17,405 bases of DNA from assembly GCA_902509725.1 (NCBI GenBank), contig CABWYI010000016.1:1-17405 (forward strand), read 5' to 3'. Of this stretch, positions 7,239 to 17,268 are shown one piece after another. Position 1 is the stretch's first letter. Each line of letters starts with the position of its first letter. This DNA is from an uncultured Pelagibacteraceae bacterium. Lineage in GTDB: Bacteria > Pseudomonadota > Alphaproteobacteria > Pelagibacterales > Pelagibacteraceae. The position numbers and the translations under genes are program-made. Below the pieces are notes generated by a model, which worked only from the letters and a program-made list of their open reading frames with translations, was not told the DNA's origin and did no database searches.

Positions 7239-8154
7239 AATTGTAGCTATTCAAGGAAATCATCCTTCTAAACTCAATCTAGCAACAGATACAAGTATTT
7301 TTTTAGCCAATGAAATTCAAAGTAAAAAATATAAGATCTTTTATTATGAGCCTAAAAATCTGTCGATAATAAACTTTAAAGTAATAGCTAAAGGTTTTTT
7401 TATAAAGTTTAATTATAATAAAAAGAAATTTTTTAAAATATATAAAATTCAAAAATTAGATCTCTCGAAATGCAAATTCATATTAATAAGGCAAGATCCA
7501 CCTTTTAATCTAGAATATATATCAACCACATATATTTTAGAGAAATTGAGTAATAAAGTAAAAATTATTAACAACCCAAGATCAATCAGAAATATTTCTG
7601 AGAAGCTTTATTCAACAAAATATCAAAAATATATGCCTAGTACTATTTTTACCCAAAACATAAGTGAAATTAAAAAATTTTTCAAACTTCACAAAAAGGT
7701 GATTTTAAAACCTATTCATAGTTTTAGTGGAAATGATATTTACCTATTGACTAAATTTAACTTAAAATTTATTAGAAATTTTATAAATAAACATGATCAT
7801 ATAATGTGTCAAAAATATTTACCTAAAATAAGCAAAGGTGATAAGAGAGTTTTTTTAATTAACGGTAAGGTTAGGGGTGTGATATCAAGAATTCCGAAAA
7901 AAGGATCTTTTTTAAGTAATATGAGTAAGGGTGCTAGACCAATAACTACTAATTTAACTAAAATCGAAAAAAAAATAGCAAATATAATTGCAAAAGATTT
8001 GAAAAAAGAGCAAATTTTTTTTGCCGGGATCGATTTTATTGATCAAAAACTCAATGGTGATATCAACGTAACATCGCCAACTGGATTAAAAACTCTCCAT
8101 GATTTATCAAAACAAAATCTTGCAAAAATTTTTTGGAAAGAATTAAAAGCATGA
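7228..8154 (+). CDS. gshB: Glutathione synthetase (ATP-grasp)
   Basis: This enzyme adds glycine to gamma-glutamylcysteine with ATP to finish glutathione. At 308 residues it is near the 315 of E. coli GshB. Family blocks are IRQDPPFNLEY, TYILE, NNPRSIRNISEKLY, VILKPIHSFSGNDIYLL, KGDKRVFLINGKV, SRIPKKGSF, and INVTSPTGLKTL near the end, where Asn and Ser/Thr close the Mg-ATP site. The flexible ATP loop, GMGG in E. coli, reads SFSGND here. The protein is Lys-rich (pI likely high). I chose ATG 7228, with AAGTGA a few bases upstream; an in-frame GTG at 7219 would add three residues. It overlaps gshA by 11 bases and the DMT gene by 4 (ATGA). Confidence 0.94.
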   Translation: MINKIVAIQGNHPSKLNLATDTSIFLANEIQSKKYKIFYYEPKNLSIINFKVIAKGFFIKFNYNKKKFFKIYKIQKLDLSKCKFILIRQDPPFNLEYISTTYILEKLSNKVKIINNPRSIRNISEKLYSTKYQKYMPSTIFTQNISEIKKFFKLHKKVILKPIHSFSGNDIYLLTKFNLKFIRNFINKHDHIMCQKYLPKISKGDKRVFLINGKVRGVISRIPKKGSFLSNMSKGARPITTNLTKIEKKIANIIAKDLKKEQIFFAGIDFIDQKLNGDINVTSPTGLKTLHDLSKQNLAKIFWKELKA

Positions 8155-9011
8155 ATAGTTTAACTGATCAACAAAAAGGTTCTTTACTTGCGTTTGTTGC
8201 GGTTATGTTCATTACACCAGATTCTTTATTTATAAGACTTTCAAGTGTGGATACCTGGGGTTTAGTTTTTTATAGAGGAATGATTCCCTTTTTAACTGTT
8301 TTTTTTGTAATGCTTCTTATTTACAAATTAAATTTTTTTAAAATGCTATTCTCAAGCGGCTATCATGGTCTTATTTACATTGGCACATTTAGTATAACAA
8401 ATATCACTTTTGTAGTTTCTATCCAGAATACTAATGTAGCCAATACTCTTGTCATGATAGCTACCGCTCCAATGTTATCAGCTATACTCAGTGCTTTATT
8501 TTTAAAGGAGCCTCCAGACAAAAAGACTTGGATTTCTATAATTATTACTTTTTTAGCTATAATTTATATTTTTTTCGATTCTATCAAGTTAGGTAATTTT
8601 TATGGCGATATACTTGGCTTTATTACCGCAATTGGTCTCGCCGTGGGAGCGGTAACGATAAGATCAGCTAAATCAAAAAATTTGGTTCCTGCTGCTGTAG
8701 TAGGTAAATTGTTTGTAGCAACTTTTGCTTTATTTTTTATTGATAGTTTTGTTTTAGAAAATAGAGATTTAATTATTGTACCTATAATGTGTATACTTTG
8801 TGTAGCAATTCCTTTTGTATTAGTAACTATCGCCCCAAGATTTATACCAGCGGCAGAAGTAAATCTATTTTTCCTATTAGAGACCATTATTGGACCAATA
8901 TGGGTTTGGCTTATTATTAAGGAACAACCAAGTATAGAAACTCTTCAGGGGGGAGTAATAATTATTGCTACAATTGCAATTCACTCATTTCTAAAGCTTA
9001 AAAATTCTTAG
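8151..9011 (+). CDS. EamA/DMT-superfamily permease
   Basis: This is a membrane transporter of 286 residues with ten predicted helices in two EamA repeats. The first repeat ends with the typical AxxPMLSAILSALFLKEPP block. The second contains AAEVNLFFLLETIIGPIWVWLIIKEQP, the usual signature at the end of such proteins. Many family members export amino acids or metabolites; the substrate here is not determined by sequence. ATG 8151 overlaps the gshB stop as ATGA, so translation is coupled to gshB. That context suggests a role linked to glutathione or its precursors, such as exporting excess thiols, but this is inference only. An in-frame TTG at 8133 is a less likely start. It is a paralogue of the permease at 15059-15964. 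Confidence 0.9.
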   Translation: MNSLTDQQKGSLLAFVAVMFITPDSLFIRLSSVDTWGLVFYRGMIPFLTVFFVMLLIYKLNFFKMLFSSGYHGLIYIGTFSITNITFVVSIQNTNVANTLVMIATAPMLSAILSALFLKEPPDKKTWISIIITFLAIIYIFFDSIKLGNFYGDILGFITAIGLAVGAVTIRSAKSKNLVPAAVVGKLFVATFALFFIDSFVLENRDLIIVPIMCILCVAIPFVLVTIAPRFIPAAEVNLFFLLETIIGPIWVWLIIKEQPSIETLQGGVIIIATIAIHSFLKLKNS

Positions 9012-11166: not shown

Positions 11167-11976
11167 ATGTCTAAAAAGAAAATTAAAACAAAAAGAAAAA
11201 ATTCAAAACCAAAAAAAATAGGAGGACTATTTAATAAGGTTTTCGAAGAATTTAAAAAAAAACAAAAAAGCAACGAAAAAAAAGAAATTAAACTCAAAGA
11301 AGAAATAATCCGTAAAGAGTTAATTAAAATTAAAGCTAAAGATAAAGAGCAAAAATTTAAAGAAGAAGAGTATAAAAAAAAAGAAGAACAGATTAAAAAG
11401 AAAGATGATGAACTAAGAAAAAAAGATTTATATCTTACCCAAAAAGATGATGATTTAAGAATTAAAGAAAAAGAACAAAAAATTAAAGAAAAAGAATACC
11501 TAAATAAGAATGATACTTTAAAACTTAAAGAAGAGTCAATTAAAACTAAAGAAATTTCTCTAAAAGAAAAAGAGCAGGAATATATCAAGCTTCAAAAAGA
11601 ACAAAAGAAAATAGAAAATGAGTTTAAGCTAAATAAAGAAATTTTAGTTAAGAGAGAACTAGATATTAAGATAAGAGAAGAGGAGCAAAGTAAAAAAGAT
11701 TTTAAAGAAGTGAAGCGAAAACAAAAAGAACAAAAATTAAAAGATGAAAAAGATGCTTTACAAAAAGATTTAGAAGCTCAAAGAATAAAAGAATGGGAAG
11801 ATAAATTTGATGAAGAACAAAGGCTCAAGCTAGAGTCGGAATTTCAAAAAGAGGAAAGACTTAAACAAAGAGAACAACTTAGAAGAGCTATTGAAGAGGA
11901 AAAAGATAAATCTCTTCAAGAAGAATTATTTTCTAGACTAGATGCTTTTGAAATAGATCAAAGGAAGAAAAATTAA
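11167..11976 (+). CDS. Highly charged heptad-repeat (helical) protein, function unknown
   Basis: This 269-residue protein consists almost only of Lys, Glu, Asp, Gln, Leu and Ile. I do not recognise a named family. A basic N-terminus (residues 1-17, mostly Lys/Arg/Asn) is followed by IGGLFNKVFEEF. From residue 37 to 169 there are 19 heptads without a break. Position 1 is Lys in 13 of 19, and position 5 is hydrophobic or aromatic in 16 of 19 (Gln in the other three). Residues 170-269 remain helical and charged but lose the strict phase, ending in LFSRLDAFEIDQRKKN. There is no signal peptide or membrane helix. The single hydrophobic seam suggests a stiff single helix or weak coiled coil, possibly binding nucleic acid or membrane through its basic end. 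It is divergent from cmk across 175 bases and ends 1 base before the convergent MOSC gene. Confidence 0.8.
   Translation: MSKKKIKTKRKNSKPKKIGGLFNKVFEEFKKKQKSNEKKEIKLKEEIIRKELIKIKAKDKEQKFKEEEYKKKEEQIKKKDDELRKKDLYLTQKDDDLRIKEKEQKIKEKEYLNKNDTLKLKEESIKTKEISLKEKEQEYIKLQKEQKKIENEFKLNKEILVKRELDIKIREEEQSKKDFKEVKRKQKEQKLKDEKDALQKDLEAQRIKEWEDKFDEEQRLKLESEFQKEERLKQREQLRRAIEEEKDKSLQEELFSRLDAFEIDQRKKN
11275..11673 (+). repeat. 19 coding heptads (21-base period) with a 126-base super-repeat
   Basis: The region encodes 19 consecutive heptads. On top of them is a six-heptad cycle. Heptads 4, 10 and 16 carry Gln at position 5 (KDKEQKF, KEKEQKI, LQKEQKK), heptads 5, 11 and 17 carry an aromatic there (Tyr, Tyr, Phe), and the next two positions are Ile/Leu each time. 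The units are 11338-11463, 11464-11589 and a partial one from 11590. The first 36 bases of units 1 and 2 agree at 30 positions by hand alignment, which suggests tandem duplication of a 126-base block followed by drift. Confidence 0.65.
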
Positions 11977-12455: not shown

Positions 12456-12683
12456 ATGAACAAAGAAAATAAAATAAAATTATGGAAAATAATTCAACAA
12501 GCGGGTGATCATTTATTGGGACAACTTCCAAGTCATCCAAATCATCCAAAAGGAAGAAATCCTTATGCACATGTAGCTATATGTATTAAAGAAAAATTCA
12601 ATGCAAGTTACAAAGATGTTCCAGATGAAAAATTTGATGAAGTAATTGAATATATCGAATTTTTAAAACAAAATCCTAACTAA
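12456..12683 (+). CDS. Small conserved-looking protein resembling the ORF6C phage domain
   Basis: The product is a 75-residue soluble protein, too short for a confident family call. The N-terminal half is a helix (NKENKIKLWKIIQQAGDHLL) and a loop rich in His, Pro and Gly (PSHPNHPKGRNPYAHV). The second half, IKEKFNASYKDVPDEKFDEVIEYIEFLK, follows the pattern of the ORF6C domain found at the C-terminus of phage antirepressor-like proteins (F-x-SYKD-[IVL]-P-x-x-x-[FY]-x-E-[AV]-[IL]-x-[FY]-I). This is resemblance from memory, not a search result. I chose ATG 12456, just downstream of the TATAAT pair, because an in-frame extension to 12333 would run antisense through the MOSC gene and has unrelated composition. 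It ends 22 bases before the convergent amidinotransferase gene. No other phage genes are nearby. Confidence 0.72.
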   Translation: MNKENKIKLWKIIQQAGDHLLGQLPSHPNHPKGRNPYAHVAICIKEKFNASYKDVPDEKFDEVIEYIEFLKQNPN

Positions 12684-12705
12684 GAAAAAAACTATACAAA
12701 TATAT

Positions 12706-13824
12706 TTATTGTTTTGGAAAATAATCCTTTAATGTTCCTTCTCTATATACATCTGCCGTACAACAATGAAGTCCTCCTCCAAATGCGTAGGCGTCTCTTA
12801 AATCCACAGGAATAACTTCCATCCCCAATTTATCCAATTGTTCTGCTTGATATATTTCACTTTTTTCAACACAAACAGTTTTAGGATCAAGTACTAAAAC
12901 ATTCATAGATAGCCAAACAGAAGAGTAACATAGTGCTGGTGGCTCATTGTGAGCTGGTTGTGCGCTATCGATGATTTTCCATCCATTATCCTCAAATAGC
13001 TTTCGTTGTTCTTTTGGTAACTTTCTTTGAGGATTATTTATAATTAATCCTTCTTTAATAGGAGTAAAAGTTGCATCAATATGTATTGGATATGGATCTC
13101 CTGGAAAATTCACAGAATGAACTCGATGATCTTTGTAATGTCTTTTTAACCAATCAATGCCTTTCAAGTTTGTAGTAAAACCATGTTGTACAACTAAATC
13201 TTTACCAAATCTTAAAACATCAGCTGCGTCAAATAATGGCTCCTCCTCTGTTGTTACAAAGTATTTTTTTTCAGTCCAGTCTAATCTTTTTTGCACACCA
13301 ATTTTTTCTGATAGATAATCTTTACGATAATCAGCATCTGTAAGTCTTGGCTTAGGTGCTGACTCATGTCTCATGTTTGGGTCCAGATTATAATACTCTT
13401 TAAGTAATGGTCGATAACAAAGATACTCAAACCATCTGCACCTATAGCTCATTGTGGCTTCTAAAATTTCGTTTCCCACAGTTAAAAGCACATCTCTAGG
13501 GGGCATACAGCCAAACATAGTTTCCGCTTTCCAATCTGGAGTAGATGTTGCTTGATTAAAATTTATCGGAGTTGGCCTATCTACTTTAATGCCTCTTTTT
13601 TTTAGAATGTTTGAAAAATCATCTAAAAGTTGATTAGCTTTATCAATTGTATCTTTTGTTCTAGGTCCAAATTGACCTCTCATATCTGAGTCCTCAGGAA
13701 CTTTTGCATCCAAAGCTGGCTCAGGAGCTGGTATACAAGTACCATCTGCTTTTCCAACAATCACATGTTTAAGTGGATCCCATTCATTCCAACTATTAAC
13801 AACCATAGTGTTTTTTTTATTCAT
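12706..13824 (-). CDS. Arginine:glycine-type amidinotransferase
   Basis: This family moves the amidino group of arginine to an amine, classically glycine, giving guanidinoacetate and ornithine through a Cys-bound intermediate. At 372 residues it covers the whole catalytic pentein domain; the animal enzyme is longer mainly through its leader. NSWNEWDPLKHVIVG opens the domain. LFDAADVLRFGKD gives Asp199, PIHIDATF gives His248 (equivalent to animal His303), SSVWLSMNVLVLD follows, and GGGLHCCTADVYREGTL gives the nucleophile Cys354 (equivalent to animal Cys407). The residue after it is Cys, where the animal enzyme has Trp. The native acceptor cannot be read off: glycine is the default, but bacterial relatives use lysine or inosamines. 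It starts 5 bases after the creatinase stop, so the two are very likely co-transcribed. Confidence 0.92.
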   Translation of the reverse strand: MNKKNTMVVNSWNEWDPLKHVIVGKADGTCIPAPEPALDAKVPEDSDMRGQFGPRTKDTIDKANQLLDDFSNILKKRGIKVDRPTPINFNQATSTPDWKAETMFGCMPPRDVLLTVGNEILEATMSYRCRWFEYLCYRPLLKEYYNLDPNMRHESAPKPRLTDADYRKDYLSEKIGVQKRLDWTEKKYFVTTEEEPLFDAADVLRFGKDLVVQHGFTTNLKGIDWLKRHYKDHRVHSVNFPGDPYPIHIDATFTPIKEGLIINNPQRKLPKEQRKLFEDNGWKIIDSAQPAHNEPPALCYSSVWLSMNVLVLDPKTVCVEKSEIYQAEQLDKLGMEVIPVDLRDAYAFGGGLHCCTADVYREGTLKDYFPKQ

Positions 13825-13829
13825 AAATT

Positions 13830-15047
13830 TTAGTTTTTAATAATATTATATTCAGGACCAAATGGAAATTTTGTAATATTTTCTACTCCATCTTTACCAA
13901 TAACTAAAATATCATGCTCACGATATCCTCCGGCACCTGGTTTGCCTTCTGGGATCATTATCATTGGCTCCATTGAAATAACCATATTTTCCTTTAAAAC
14001 AGTATCAATATCTTCTCTCAACTCTAAACCTGACTCCCTGCCATAAAAATGTGATAGAACTCCAAAGGAATGTCCATAGCCAAATGTTCTGTATTGTAAA
14101 TATCCAAGATCAGCAAAAAGTTCATTTAATTCGTTGCAAATATCAGAGCATTTAACACCTGGTTTAATTAATTCTAATCCTCTTTTATGAACTTTTACAT
14201 TTGCTTCCCATGCTTTAAGAGAAGCATCATCTACTGAATTTAAAAAAAGGGTCCTTTCAAGCGCCGTATAGTAACCTGATATCATTGGAAAAGCATTTAA
14301 AGATAAAATATCTCCAGATTTTAACTTTCTATTAGTTTTTGGATTATGAGCACCATCTGTATTTATTCCAGACTGAAACCAAACCCAAGTATCCATATAC
14401 TCTGCATTAGGATAGGTTTTTGCAATCTCTCTCTCCATTCTATCTCTTCCTGAAATAGCTATTTCTAACTCTGTTGCATCTTCACTTATATTTTTGATAA
14501 TTTCTTCACCACCTATATCTGCAATTCTTGCTCCATTTTTGATTATTGCTATTTCTTCTTTTGATTTTATCATTCTTAGTTTCATTAAATCTTTTGAAAC
14601 ATCTTTGAATAACGAAAAAGTGAAAATAGAATTAATCTTATCTTTCATTTCAATAGTAACATGATCGTTTTCTATACCTATGTTTTTTGGAGGATCATCT
14701 CTTCCTATTATTGAAACTATTGCTTTTAAAAAATTATCTCTTTTCCAATCTGTATATATTATATTTTCACAATGAGACCTTCGCCAAGGTTGGCTTGCAT
14801 CGATATTAGCTGAAATAGTAAATATTTTATTTTTAGTAATTATACATCCATATGGTCTTCCAAAAGAACAGTAAATAAAACCTGTGTAATATGCAATATT
14901 ATGCATAGATGTAAGAATTATCATATCCAAATTATTATTTTCCATTACATTACGTAAATTAAATACTCTTTGGTCGTATTCCTTTTTTGAAAAAGGTAGG
15001 CTGACTTTTTTACCGTTATTTAATAAAAAAAAATCAGGTCGTTCCAT
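13830..15047 (-). CDS. Creatinase (creatine amidinohydrolase)
   Basis: Creatinase hydrolyses creatine to sarcosine and urea. The 405-residue protein has an N-terminal domain and a C-terminal pita-bread (M24) fold. It follows the Pseudomonas enzyme as I recall it, with almost no gaps: YCSFGRPYG places Phe62 and Arg64, QPWRR and YTDWKRDN follow, then FQSGINTDGAHNP with His234 (His232 there), YYTALERTLF with Glu264 (Glu262), GYGHSFG with His326, YGRESG with Arg337, and ISMEPMIM with Glu360 (Glu358). The two Asp metal ligands of M24 peptidases are Asn251 and Ala262 here, so it should be metal-free and not an aminopeptidase. It lies 11 bases after the DMT gene and 5 before the amidinotransferase. 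A related guanidino acid could be the true substrate. Confidence 0.92.
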   Translation of the reverse strand: MERPDFFLLNNGKKVSLPFSKKEYDQRVFNLRNVMENNNLDMIILTSMHNIAYYTGFIYCSFGRPYGCIITKNKIFTISANIDASQPWRRSHCENIIYTDWKRDNFLKAIVSIIGRDDPPKNIGIENDHVTIEMKDKINSIFTFSLFKDVSKDLMKLRMIKSKEEIAIIKNGARIADIGGEEIIKNISEDATELEIAISGRDRMEREIAKTYPNAEYMDTWVWFQSGINTDGAHNPKTNRKLKSGDILSLNAFPMISGYYTALERTLFLNSVDDASLKAWEANVKVHKRGLELIKPGVKCSDICNELNELFADLGYLQYRTFGYGHSFGVLSHFYGRESGLELREDIDTVLKENMVISMEPMIMIPEGKPGAGGYREHDILVIGKDGVENITKFPFGPEYNIIKN

Positions 15048-15058
15048 AATAAAAAAAT

Positions 15059-15964
15059 TTAATTCAGAGCAATGTGTCTTTTATTCCATCTCATTATTAA
15101 ACTGTAATAAATTAAAGAAATAAAAAGAAAAAATCCGCCAACTATAGTGTTAGTTGCTGGCACTTCGTTAATACCAAATAGAGGTAACCAAACCCAAAAA
15201 ATACCACCAATTACCTCTGTTAAAGACAAAAGTGTTAATTCAGCTGCTTGTATAGCTTTTGATCCTATTGAATATAAAATCAATCCAAAACAGACCAATA
15301 CTCCATGTAAAGAAAACATTGAGCTATTATAACTGGTAGAAAAAAAAGTTTGCTTTGTTATTAAAATAATTAAAGCTGCAAATATAAAACAAAATAGCCC
15401 TGCAATAGCGACAGTAGTAAATTTTGGGGTTTCTTTTCTCCATCTGAGTGTTACAGAAAATACTGAAAATCCTATTGATGAAGTTAATCCAAAAAGAAAA
15501 CCTATTAGAGAGTTTTTTTCTGTATTTCCTATAGCCATTATTATAATTCCTATAGTAGCAATAGAAATTGAAACCCAGACATTTATGGAAATTTTTTCTT
15601 TAAGGAATAAAAATGCAAGTACTGCCGTAAAAAAAGGCATAGCAGCTAAACATAAAAGAGTGATAGCGGCGGACGTGTTTGTTATTGAATAAATAAAGGA
15701 AATCATAGCAATACCCAGACCTAATCCACCTATTAGTCCAGATCTTCCAACTCTTTTGTAATTTTTATAAAAATTCATGCCCTCTTCCAAATAAAGATAA
15801 ATGTTTAAAATTATAAAAATTGTTAAACCACGACCAAAAATATATTGCCATGGCACCATATGGGGGTTGTCCATATACCTAACAACTAAAGGACCAAAAG
15901 ACCACAAAATGCCAGCAAATAATACTATTGGAATTGCAATTTTTTCGTTTTTAAGATCGATCAT
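15059..15964 (-). CDS. EamA/DMT-superfamily permease of the guanidino cluster
   Basis: This is a ten-helix inner-membrane transporter of 301 residues with two EamA repeats. The first contains LLCLAAMPFFTAVLAFLFLKEKIS, and the second contains IQAAELTLLSLTEVIGGIFWVWLPLFGINEVP, the end-of-domain signature. It ends with a basic cytoplasmic tail (MRWNKRHIALN). It is the first gene of a tight three-gene set with creatinase and amidinotransferase. It may therefore export or take up a guanidino compound or product, but direction and substrate are inference. Most EamA proteins characterised are exporters. It starts 50 bases after moeA on the same strand, so read-through from the molybdenum cofactor genes is possible. 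Confidence 0.9.
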   Translation of the reverse strand: MIDLKNEKIAIPIVLFAGILWSFGPLVVRYMDNPHMVPWQYIFGRGLTIFIILNIYLYLEEGMNFYKNYKRVGRSGLIGGLGLGIAMISFIYSITNTSAAITLLCLAAMPFFTAVLAFLFLKEKISINVWVSISIATIGIIIMAIGNTEKNSLIGFLFGLTSSIGFSVFSVTLRWRKETPKFTTVAIAGLFCFIFAALIILITKQTFFSTSYNSSMFSLHGVLVCFGLILYSIGSKAIQAAELTLLSLTEVIGGIFWVWLPLFGINEVPATNTIVGGFFLFISLIYYSLIMRWNKRHIALN

Positions 15965-15976
15965 AATGATTATTTA

Positions 15977-16005
15977 ATTGTAATTAGTTTGAACTACAAC
16001 AAAAA
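15977..16005 (-). promoter_or_regulatory. Weak candidate promoter for the guanidino cluster
   Basis: In the 50-base moeA-DMT gap the minus strand has TACAAT (15982-15977, 5 of 6 to TATAAT) with TTTTTG 17 bases upstream (16005-16000, poor -35). Transcription would begin a few bases before the ATG at 15964. This is weak evidence that the cluster can be expressed apart from moeA. Confidence 0.25.
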
Positions 16006-16014
16006 TGAGATGGT

Positions 16015-17268
16015 TTATAAAAAAATTTTATTAGGGTTATTTGGAAAAAAACAATCAACTACATCACCTTTTTTAAAACTTGATTTTCCCGAAGGAAGCA
16101 TCACCCATGCATTTGACTGAATAAAAGACCTAATTCTAAAAGACTCTTGACCTTTTAATATTTCAACATGAGCTTTACCATTTTTAGTTGTATAAATTTT
16201 ACTTTTTACAAATTGAGTAAATTCTTTTTTTTTAACAAATCCATTCTTTAAAATTGCTTTAAATGAAATTTCTTCAGGCATATCTAATAAATTTTTTATA
16301 TAAGGATAAACGAAAAAACGAAAGCAAGCTGAAGATGAAATTGGATTTCCTGGTAGCCCAAAAATAACTTTGTTTTTACCTTTTATTTTTGCAAATAAAA
16401 CTGGTTTACCAGGCCTGATATAAACGCTCTTAAAATAATTGGATAATTCAAATTCTCTTATAACTTTTGGTATAAAATCAAATTTACCAGCAGATACAGC
16501 GCCAGAAGTTAAAATAATATCAATTTTAGAATTAAGAATCTTTTTAATCTTTGATTTAAATAAATTGCTGTGATTATCCCTTAAAATACCCCCATCTTTA
16601 AAATTAAAAAGAAAACTTTGATTTAAAGAATGAATATAATCATTATTAGAATTCCTCACTTGCCATTTATTAATTCTTTTTTTATTACTAATTTCATTTC
16701 CAGTCGAAAAAAATATGATATTTGGTAATTTTTTTACTTTTACTTTTGTAATACCAAGAGTCTTTAAAGCAAGTATATGATTTGATTGGATTATTGTCCC
16801 TTTTTTAATCAATAAATCATTTTTTTTATAGTCTGACCCTTTAAATCTTACGTGTGAGTACTTTCGTACTCGTTGATTTAGAATAATGTATTTAGGTTTA
16901 TTCTTATTTGGGTAAAACTCTGCCTTTTCAATAGGTACAATTGCATCAAAAGATTTTGGTATAAGCCCACCTGTCATTATTTCTATGGTATTAAATTTTT
17001 TTATAGCCTTTTTAATTGGTTTATTCCCAGCAGCTATTGAACCAATAATTTTGAATTTTTTAGTAAATTTATTACTCAATTTTTTTGTCTCATTTGAATT
17101 GACTACAAAACCATCAAAGGCTGCATTATTTTCTGAGGGATAATAAGTTTTGACATAAATATTTTTTGCCACAACTCTGTTTAAACATCTGTTTGTATTT
17201 AAAAGCTCATTACCAATGTTTATTTTAGAATTTTTTAAAATTGATCTTGCTTTTTTATAATTAATCAT
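16015..17268 (-). CDS. moeA: Molybdopterin molybdenumtransferase MoeA
   Basis: MoeA inserts molybdenum into adenylated molybdopterin to make molybdenum cofactor. At 417 residues it is full length. NNAAFDGFVV holds Asp52, the counterpart of the catalytic Asp in the usual AMDGYA. EIMTGGLIPKSFDAIVPIE follows near residue 96. The MoCF_biosynth fold then shows FFSTGNEI (Ser188 region, Asn as in gephyrin rather than Asp), TSGAVSAGKFDF (near 254), RPGKPVLF and GLPGNPISSSACF. The C-terminal domain IV is present. The protein is unusually Lys/Asn-rich, so it is divergent in detail, but all blocks are in order. ATG 17268 overlaps the upstream mobA stop by 8 bases. Confidence 0.93.
   Translation of the reverse strand: MINYKKARSILKNSKINIGNELLNTNRCLNRVVAKNIYVKTYYPSENNAAFDGFVVNSNETKKLSNKFTKKFKIIGSIAAGNKPIKKAIKKFNTIEIMTGGLIPKSFDAIVPIEKAEFYPNKNKPKYIILNQRVRKYSHVRFKGSDYKKNDLLIKKGTIIQSNHILALKTLGITKVKVKKLPNIIFFSTGNEISNKKRINKWQVRNSNNDYIHSLNQSFLFNFKDGGILRDNHSNLFKSKIKKILNSKIDIILTSGAVSAGKFDFIPKVIREFELSNYFKSVYIRPGKPVLFAKIKGKNKVIFGLPGNPISSSACFRFFVYPYIKNLLDMPEEISFKAILKNGFVKKKEFTQFVKSKIYTTKNGKAHVEILKGQESFRIRSFIQSNAWVMLPSGKSSFKKGDVVDCFFPNNPNKIFL

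Follow-up and report, generated by a model that had tools for sequence, protein, structure and literature searches.

A conserved EamA-amidinotransferase gene set in SAR11 bacteria, with optional creatinase and threonine aldolase genes and a possible role in glycine scavenging

A permease, a creatinase and an amidinotransferase on the minus strand

We analysed a three-gene cluster within a 17,405-nucleotide stretch of DNA from an uncultured Pelagibacteraceae bacterium (contig CABWYI010000016.1 of assembly GCA_902509725.1; hereafter the window, with a G+C content of about 29%). The cluster encodes a permease of the EamA/DMT family, a creatinase and an amidinotransferase resembling human L-arginine:glycine amidinotransferase (AGAT). 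An earlier annotation made from the letters alone, which we call the sequence-only reading, had placed the three genes on the minus strand, 11 and 5 bases apart. The list of open reading frames (ORFs) agrees in every coordinate, and the enzyme identities given there were upheld by the closest solved relatives and by Pfam. The features are as follows.

15059-15964, minus strand: EamA/DMT-family permease, 301 amino acids; PF00892
15048-15058: gap between EamA and creatinase, 11 bases
13830-15047, minus strand: predicted creatinase (creatine amidinohydrolase), 405 amino acids; closest solved relative 1chm
14346..14348, minus strand: codon of the histidine equivalent to 1chm H232 (window residue 234, from the alignment)
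13825-13829: gap between creatinase and amidinotransferase, 5 bases
12706-13824, minus strand: predicted AGAT-type amidinotransferase, 372 amino acids; closest to human AGAT
13084..13098, minus strand: 300-flap D-P-Y-P-I (AGAT counterpart D-P-N-P-M)
12763..12765, minus strand: catalytic cysteine codon (window C354, equivalent to AGAT C407)

For comparison we used an order sample of 197 SAR11 genomes (0.6-1.5 Mb in samples; some possibly incomplete), in which amidinotransferases were called at E<=1e-20 and creatinases at E<=1e-100. Amidinotransferases with at least 80% identity to the window copy are termed type I and occur in 107 genomes; 45 genomes have type II only. The type I loci number 129, of which 2 are cut upstream, leaving 127 readable (114 distinct sequences), and 5 are cut downstream, leaving 124 readable (113 distinct). 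Numbers beginning with G and L are our handles for genomes and loci.

The first gene matches the EamA domain PF00892 at 4.6e-18, with 66.3 bits against a curated cut-off of 28.2; no sequence relative of it was found in the PDB at E<=1. The second has the creatinase architecture of PF01321 (Creatinase_N) plus PF00557 (Peptidase_M24). Its best solved relatives are 1chm (1.2e-156) and 7yto (1.5e-153), and three creatine amidinohydrolases score 491-525 bits, with 525 for 1chm, whereas the best M24 chain that is not a creatinase reaches only 89 bits. Identity to 1chm is 57% over 398 aligned positions, in a full-length match. The equivalents of 1chm F62, R64, H232, Y258, E262, R335 and E358, which we take to be the active-site residues, are conserved in the window and in all 80 of the 80 aligned SAR11 copies. 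On these comparisons we assign the second gene as a true creatinase (EC 3.5.3.3). It differs from the known enzyme in its setting, an operon with EamA and an amidinotransferase, which was seen in none of 8 creatinase loci outside SAR11.

The third gene is closest to human AGAT (EC 2.1.4.1; 1jdx/1jdw, 1.2e-85), with 44% identity over 352 positions; among Pelagibacteraceae records its matches reach 95%. Cys407, His303 and Asp254 of AGAT, presumably its catalytic residues, correspond to window C354, H248 and D199, and Arg322 and Ser355, which we take to bind the carboxylate, have equivalents as well; all five are conserved in 127 of 127 type I copies. The equivalents of AGAT D170 and D305 are also present in the window enzyme. 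The two proteins part at the 300-flap, which contributes to the lid that covers the active site. It reads D-P-Y-P-I in all 127 type I copies, with Tyr (window residue 245) in place of AGAT Asn300 and Ile (window residue 247) in place of Met302, and for this reason we class the enzyme as AGAT-type and not as AGAT. Nor does it match the flaps of two other members of the family, AmtA (D-M-H-P-M) and CyrA (D-I-F-P-S), which belong to secondary-metabolite pathways (PMC4887976). The flap is identical in the 82 copies that accompany a creatinase and the 45 that do not, so that the substrate of the amidinotransferase is probably independent of creatinase.

All three genes are under purifying selection. 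Ratios of nonsynonymous to synonymous substitution (dN/dS) were 0.03-0.08 in 18 comparisons with 6 relatives; these are rough values, as dS (1.2-1.9) is near saturation.

EamA and the amidinotransferase form the constant unit, and creatinase is optional

An amidinotransferase is present in 152 of the 197 SAR11 genomes, about three quarters, and a creatinase in 41, all 41 of which also have an amidinotransferase (Fisher p 1.1e-5). By their listed places the two genes are adjacent in 39 of the 41; in one exception (G018) the creatinase lies on a different contig beside unrelated genes, and in the other (G123) it is cut by the contig end. Directly upstream of the type I amidinotransferase is creatinase in 82 of the 127 readable loci and EamA in the other 45. 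Wherever the gene immediately preceding creatinase can be read (79 of 79 loci, with 3 more cut by contig ends) it is EamA, and EamA was seen in 124 of the 127 type I loci, the remaining 3 being cut. The EamA-amidinotransferase pair is thus the constant unit, into which creatinase is optionally inserted. Five creatinase-less genomes searched whole, all of them possibly incomplete, yielded weak M24 relatives only. The sequence-only reading would have been refuted by an adjacency confined to this genome; the 127 readable loci display a conserved neighbourhood instead, and the trio arrangement itself recurs in relatives. That reading had, however, overlooked that the pair is the conserved part and that creatinase and, as described below, a threonine aldolase are optional.

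On a tree of EamA plus amidinotransferase (94 rows, after removal of duplicates and of rows without a full EamA), creatinase presence changes 8 times, and at least 5 of these changes are forced by well-supported branches. Creatinase distances correlate with those of EamA (r 0.80) and of the amidinotransferase (r 0.85), values that none of 999 permutations reached (54 rows, G015 included twice). Given this correlation, inheritance of creatinase with the operon followed by repeated loss fits better than repeated independent capture.

A threonine aldolase gene is a second optional member

A fourth gene lies directly downstream of the amidinotransferase, on the same strand, in 56 of the 124 readable type I loci (50/113 distinct). 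In 53 of these loci it starts 1-2 bases past the stop codon of the amidinotransferase gene, and the other three overlap by 1 base or are 5 bases off. The encoded proteins have 341-350 residues, save for the L045 copy, which is cut at 274. In the PDB, one protein matched 1v72 at 2.5e-107 and 7yvr at 7e-104; three proteins scanned against Pfam matched PF01212 at 4.1e-57 to 2.1e-61. The same three stay below the NCBIfam cut-offs, with at most 58.5 bits for low-specificity threonine aldolase (cut-off 312) and 76.6 for GntG (cut-off 230). By its closest solved relatives and PF01212, we annotate the fourth gene as a predicted L-threonine aldolase.

Creatinase is present in 34 of the aldolase loci and absent from 22, and the presence of one gene is independent of the other (Fisher p 0.52, 91 tree rows). 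Aldolase presence changes 13 times on the tree, at least 5 changes being forced.

These patterns bear on whether the genes are functionally linked at all. Streamlined genomes pack unrelated genes together, SAR11 genomes are compact, and moeA lies 50 bases upstream of the trio on the same strand, so the adjacency might have no functional meaning. We consider this improbable: the EamA-amidinotransferase unit persists across the 127 readable loci (EamA was seen in 124, and 3 are cut) as the inserts vary, and creatinase and aldolase change repeatedly (8 and 13 times), each at a fixed slot. Because EamA precedes creatinase in every readable locus and the genes are under purifying selection, we regard the adjacency of the trio as beyond chance.

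Glycine, sarcosine and urea in the same genomes

The sequence-only reading had pointed out that neither guanidinoacetate methyltransferase (GAMT) nor sarcosine oxidase is encoded in the window, and had concluded that a creatine route is incomplete here. The observation is true and the conclusion misleading, as a soxB-type gene (TIGR01373, above cut-off) occurs outside the operon in 41 of 41 creatinase-bearing SAR11 relatives; some of these genes may be N-methylglutamate dehydrogenase, yet an incomplete route is not supported. The same gene occurs in 124 of the 156 SAR11 genomes that have no creatinase. A human GAMT query matched 0 of 197 genomes, a search with no positive control and thus uninformative on complete creatine synthesis.

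SAR11 bacteria are reported to be glycine/serine auxotrophs (PMC12478193, PMC12636525). Phosphoglycerate dehydrogenase (PGDH, serA) scores above the family cut-off in 9 of the 197 genomes, 8 of which have no amidinotransferase. With matches of either length counted at E<=1e-100, a PGDH match is found in 1 of 107 type I genomes versus 45 of 90 others.

Creatinase also releases urea, and urease is commoner where creatinase is present (13/41 genomes versus 16/156 others; p 0.002, kinship ignored). In eight genomes (G008, G042, G089, G140, G150, G154, G170 and G204) urease lies on the same contig as the creatinase operon, about 45-51 kb away. We discarded urea as the purpose of the operon: no more than 13 of the 41 creatinase genomes encode urease, so urea nitrogen is at most an extra. 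Two cultured SAR11 strains are reported to have no urease, and it has been speculated that accumulating urea may inhibit growth (PMC8437039).

The sequence-only reading had also offered an arginine-to-urea shunt, in which the amidinotransferase makes creatine or guanidinoacetate and creatinase hydrolyses it, for a net conversion of arginine to ornithine and urea. The two enzymes are adjacent and their substrates are chemically related guanidino acids. Against such a shunt, 45 of 127 loci have no creatinase and carry the same flap, the five creatinase-less genomes searched whole, all possibly incomplete, contained only weak M24 relatives, arginase-family genes are already present in 156 of 197 genomes, and urease accompanies so few of the creatinases. 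To our knowledge, creatinase is not known to hydrolyse guanidinoacetate. We therefore find the shunt unsupported and very improbable.

A proposed glycine-scavenging operon

The reading that we favour, to which we assign a probability of roughly one half, is that the trio is a local version of an operon with which SAR11 bacteria scavenge glycine, EamA-[creatinase]-amidinotransferase-[threonine aldolase], the brackets marking optional members. EamA would import small guanidino acids such as creatine, guanidinoacetate or relatives. Creatinase would hydrolyse creatine, releasing urea along with sarcosine, which a sarcosine oxidase with its gene outside the operon would turn into glycine. The amidinotransferase would run in the reverse of the animal AGAT direction, from guanidinoacetate and ornithine to glycine and arginine, and the aldolase, where present, would release glycine from threonine. 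We propose glycine scavenging because glycine is the common product of the creatinase/soxB route, the aldolase and an AGAT-type enzyme, in bacteria reported to be auxotrophic and in genomes from which PGDH matches are nearly absent; it is the auxotrophy that leads us to propose the reverse direction. The basis at the level of sequence comprises the family identities, the catalytic residues, the conservation of the operon, its optional modules, the co-occurrence of soxB and the near-absence of PGDH matches from type I genomes; from these we infer which way the amidinotransferase runs, that its amine is glycine and that EamA is an importer. Among the options of the sequence-only reading, creatine degradation paired with a reversed amidinotransferase is the best fit to the evidence.

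One further locus counts in favour of glycine scavenging. In G085 (L115/L167/L168) a betaine-type osmolyte island carries a sister amidinotransferase, the gene for which lies 4 bases behind one for a sarcosine/dimethylglycine-dehydrogenase-like protein.

A number of findings weigh against glycine scavenging. The window operon itself has no threonine aldolase gene. Single-copy soxB-type matches occur in 6 of the 41 creatinase genomes (35 have at least two), and the soxB-type genes may encode N-methylglutamate dehydrogenase; PMC3160333 postulates that, of two such operons in SAR11, sarcosine oxidase is encoded by one and N-methylglutamate dehydrogenase by the other. Common descent and incomplete genomes confound the correlations with serA and soxB, a short PGDH-like gene is present in 32 of the 45 type-II-only genomes, and agxt, reported from offshore SAR11 genera, may make the auxotrophy less strict (PMC12636525). 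No riboswitch, glycine type included, reached the gathering score in the window, and no glycine riboswitch did so in 17 related loci; a looser search of window positions 12500-16300 gave 3 matches, all far below gathering scores. In 18 of 22 SAR11 type II loci the amidinotransferase is accompanied by a divergent FAD monooxygenase and by no evident glycine gene. Finally, linkage of creatinase and amidinotransferase was not found outside SAR11, in a class sample of 289 genomes and 8 loci. In that sample (creatinase at E<=1e-80, amidinotransferase at E<=1e-40) creatinase occurs in 31 genomes and amidinotransferase in 7. Both occur in the SAR11 genome G015 and in G388 and G491, on different contigs in the last two, and 8 of the 30 other creatinase loci of the class, those fetched widely, contained no amidinotransferase or related EamA.

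The flap raises a further difficulty, which leads to the strongest rival. Here the acceptor of the amidinotransferase would be a different one, such as taurine, lysine, beta-alanine or a polyamine amine; the enzyme would form a separate guanidino module with EamA, the creatinase and aldolase being co-regulated passengers. The flap is unlike those of AGAT, AmtA and CyrA, and it is unchanged in creatinase-less loci. In addition, three genomes (L112-L114) have a second amidinotransferase beside a different EamA and oxygenases. Comparison with AmtA, as described in PMC4887976, is instructive: its amidino transfer is reversible, yet its acceptors are lysine and ornithine and not glycine, it cannot take guanidinoacetate as donor, and when given an AGAT-like flap it still refuses glycine. 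The same source reports that CyrA accepts glycine and that human AGAT, CyrA and StrB1 can all take the amidino group from guanidinoacetate; this use of guanidinoacetate, like the reversibility of AmtA, speaks for glycine scavenging. Because our flap differs from that of AGAT and AmtA refuses both glycine and guanidinoacetate, glycine as acceptor is not guaranteed; because an AGAT-like flap did not confer glycine use on AmtA, the flap does not settle the acceptor. That both optional genes of the operon lead to glycine, and that the Arg322 equivalent is conserved, argue for glycine, and we judge another acceptor unlikely, while treating it as the leading competitor.

Less likely again is that the amidinotransferase runs forward, from arginine and glycine to guanidinoacetate (or a relative) and ornithine, with EamA exporting the product and creatinase and aldolase supplying glycine. 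Many EamA/DMT proteins are exporters, which favours this possibility and counts against import. AGAT, moreover, is usually described in the forward direction (PMC4887976). Glycine is limiting in SAR11 (PMC12478193, PMC12636525) and 106 of 107 type I genomes have no PGDH match, so that exporting glycine as guanidinoacetate would be costly.

Other loci and other features of the window

Additional amidinotransferase arrangements were encountered in the course of this work. In L112 (1113-8251), L113 (4142-15173) and L114, from G040, G180 and G042, a second amidinotransferase with 74-76% identity to the window copy is followed by a different EamA, present in two copies in L113. The surroundings in L113 include genes for a 2-oxoglutarate/Fe(II) oxygenase, with ethylene-forming enzyme and isopenicillin N synthase among its relatives, an LLM monooxygenase, a choline-dehydrogenase-like protein and TauD. 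This second amidinotransferase possibly belongs to another guanidino-compound pathway. The G085 island encodes a homocysteine S-methyltransferase-like protein, two dimethylglycine/sarcosine-dehydrogenase-like proteins, the amidinotransferase and a SAM methyltransferase, along with a GbcA-like Rieske oxygenase, a DddP-like M24 protein, ETF proteins and a divergent OpuAC gene; these NCBIfam names are below cut-off.

Most of the 18 type II loci with the FAD monooxygenase have a gene of a Lys/Arg/Orn-binding-protein cluster nearby, identified in L130. In L130 (8289-9857) the FAD monooxygenase is divergent, about 50 bases from the type II amidinotransferase, beside rodA/pbp2 and the Lys/Arg/Orn transporter. 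An M24 hydrolase is paired with an amidinotransferase a second time in L120 (6788-9069), L123 and L154, where an M24 gene begins no more than about 10 bases behind a type II amidinotransferase; the L120 M24 protein is close to the ectoine hydrolase DoeA (6twk, 8.4e-95) and below the NCBIfam cut-off. In L143 (7283-14839; G365, a 1.6-Mb genome of the class) the first gene of an operon encodes an amidinotransferase (61%), and the operon also has eutA-, eutB- and eutC-like, DoeB2-like and M24 genes. This operon resembles ectoine/hydroxyectoine catabolism clusters, with scores below the cut-offs of the ectoine-named models and, for the general cyclodeaminase model, above its own.

In L142 (2780-6645; G491, of another order) the amidinotransferase is followed by serC and serA. 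We considered a link between amidinotransferase and serine synthesis and set it aside, as serC-serA were not seen in L169-L174 of the same order, several of whose contigs end too soon; a HIBADH-amidinotransferase pair is conserved in 6 of 6 fetched relatives from that order. Plasmid and phage records (43 and 15) contained only relatives below 60% identity. Among 10 ORFs from two unannotated plasmid regions, an NCBIfam scan found no gene for creatinase or for sarcosine or glycine metabolism; one of the regions (Photobacterium) has an EamA gene, about 3 kb upstream and not adjacent. The sole riboswitch match in the 17 related loci was a SAM-V riboswitch at L138 1340-1403; this locus has no creatinase, and the riboswitch lies about 6 kb away from its amidinotransferase.

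Within the window, a short convergent ORF lies downstream of the amidinotransferase. A 269-residue ORF at 11167-11976 is rich in lysine and glutamate, coiled-coil-like and without a Pfam match, in a stretch of 22.8% G+C. A second EamA gene, at 8133-9011, follows gshA- and gshB-like genes.

Relation to published work and implications

The use of creatine by SAR11 is already in the literature: creatinase has been listed as a SAR11 gene with a proposed creatine-to-glycine conversion (PMC3686209), and SAR11 sarcosine oxidases and one-carbon metabolism have been described (PMC3160333). In the main texts of these two papers the terms "amidino", "EamA" and "threonine aldolase" are absent, as is "creatin" from that of PMC3160333, and we found no description of a SAR11 amidinotransferase or of the operon in the open-access papers searched. 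The EamA-amidinotransferase gene set is widespread and, it appears, previously undescribed.

More tentatively than for the operon itself, we suggest that reverse AGAT-type salvage might operate across most of the order, with creatine and threonine cleavage plugged into it, and that guanidino acids might serve as a glycine currency of the surface ocean. SAR11 bacteria are among the most numerous in the sea, and the source of their glycine bears on which dissolved organic matter they need. The conserved operon suggests that guanidino acids may supply these organisms with glycine, arginine and nitrogen.

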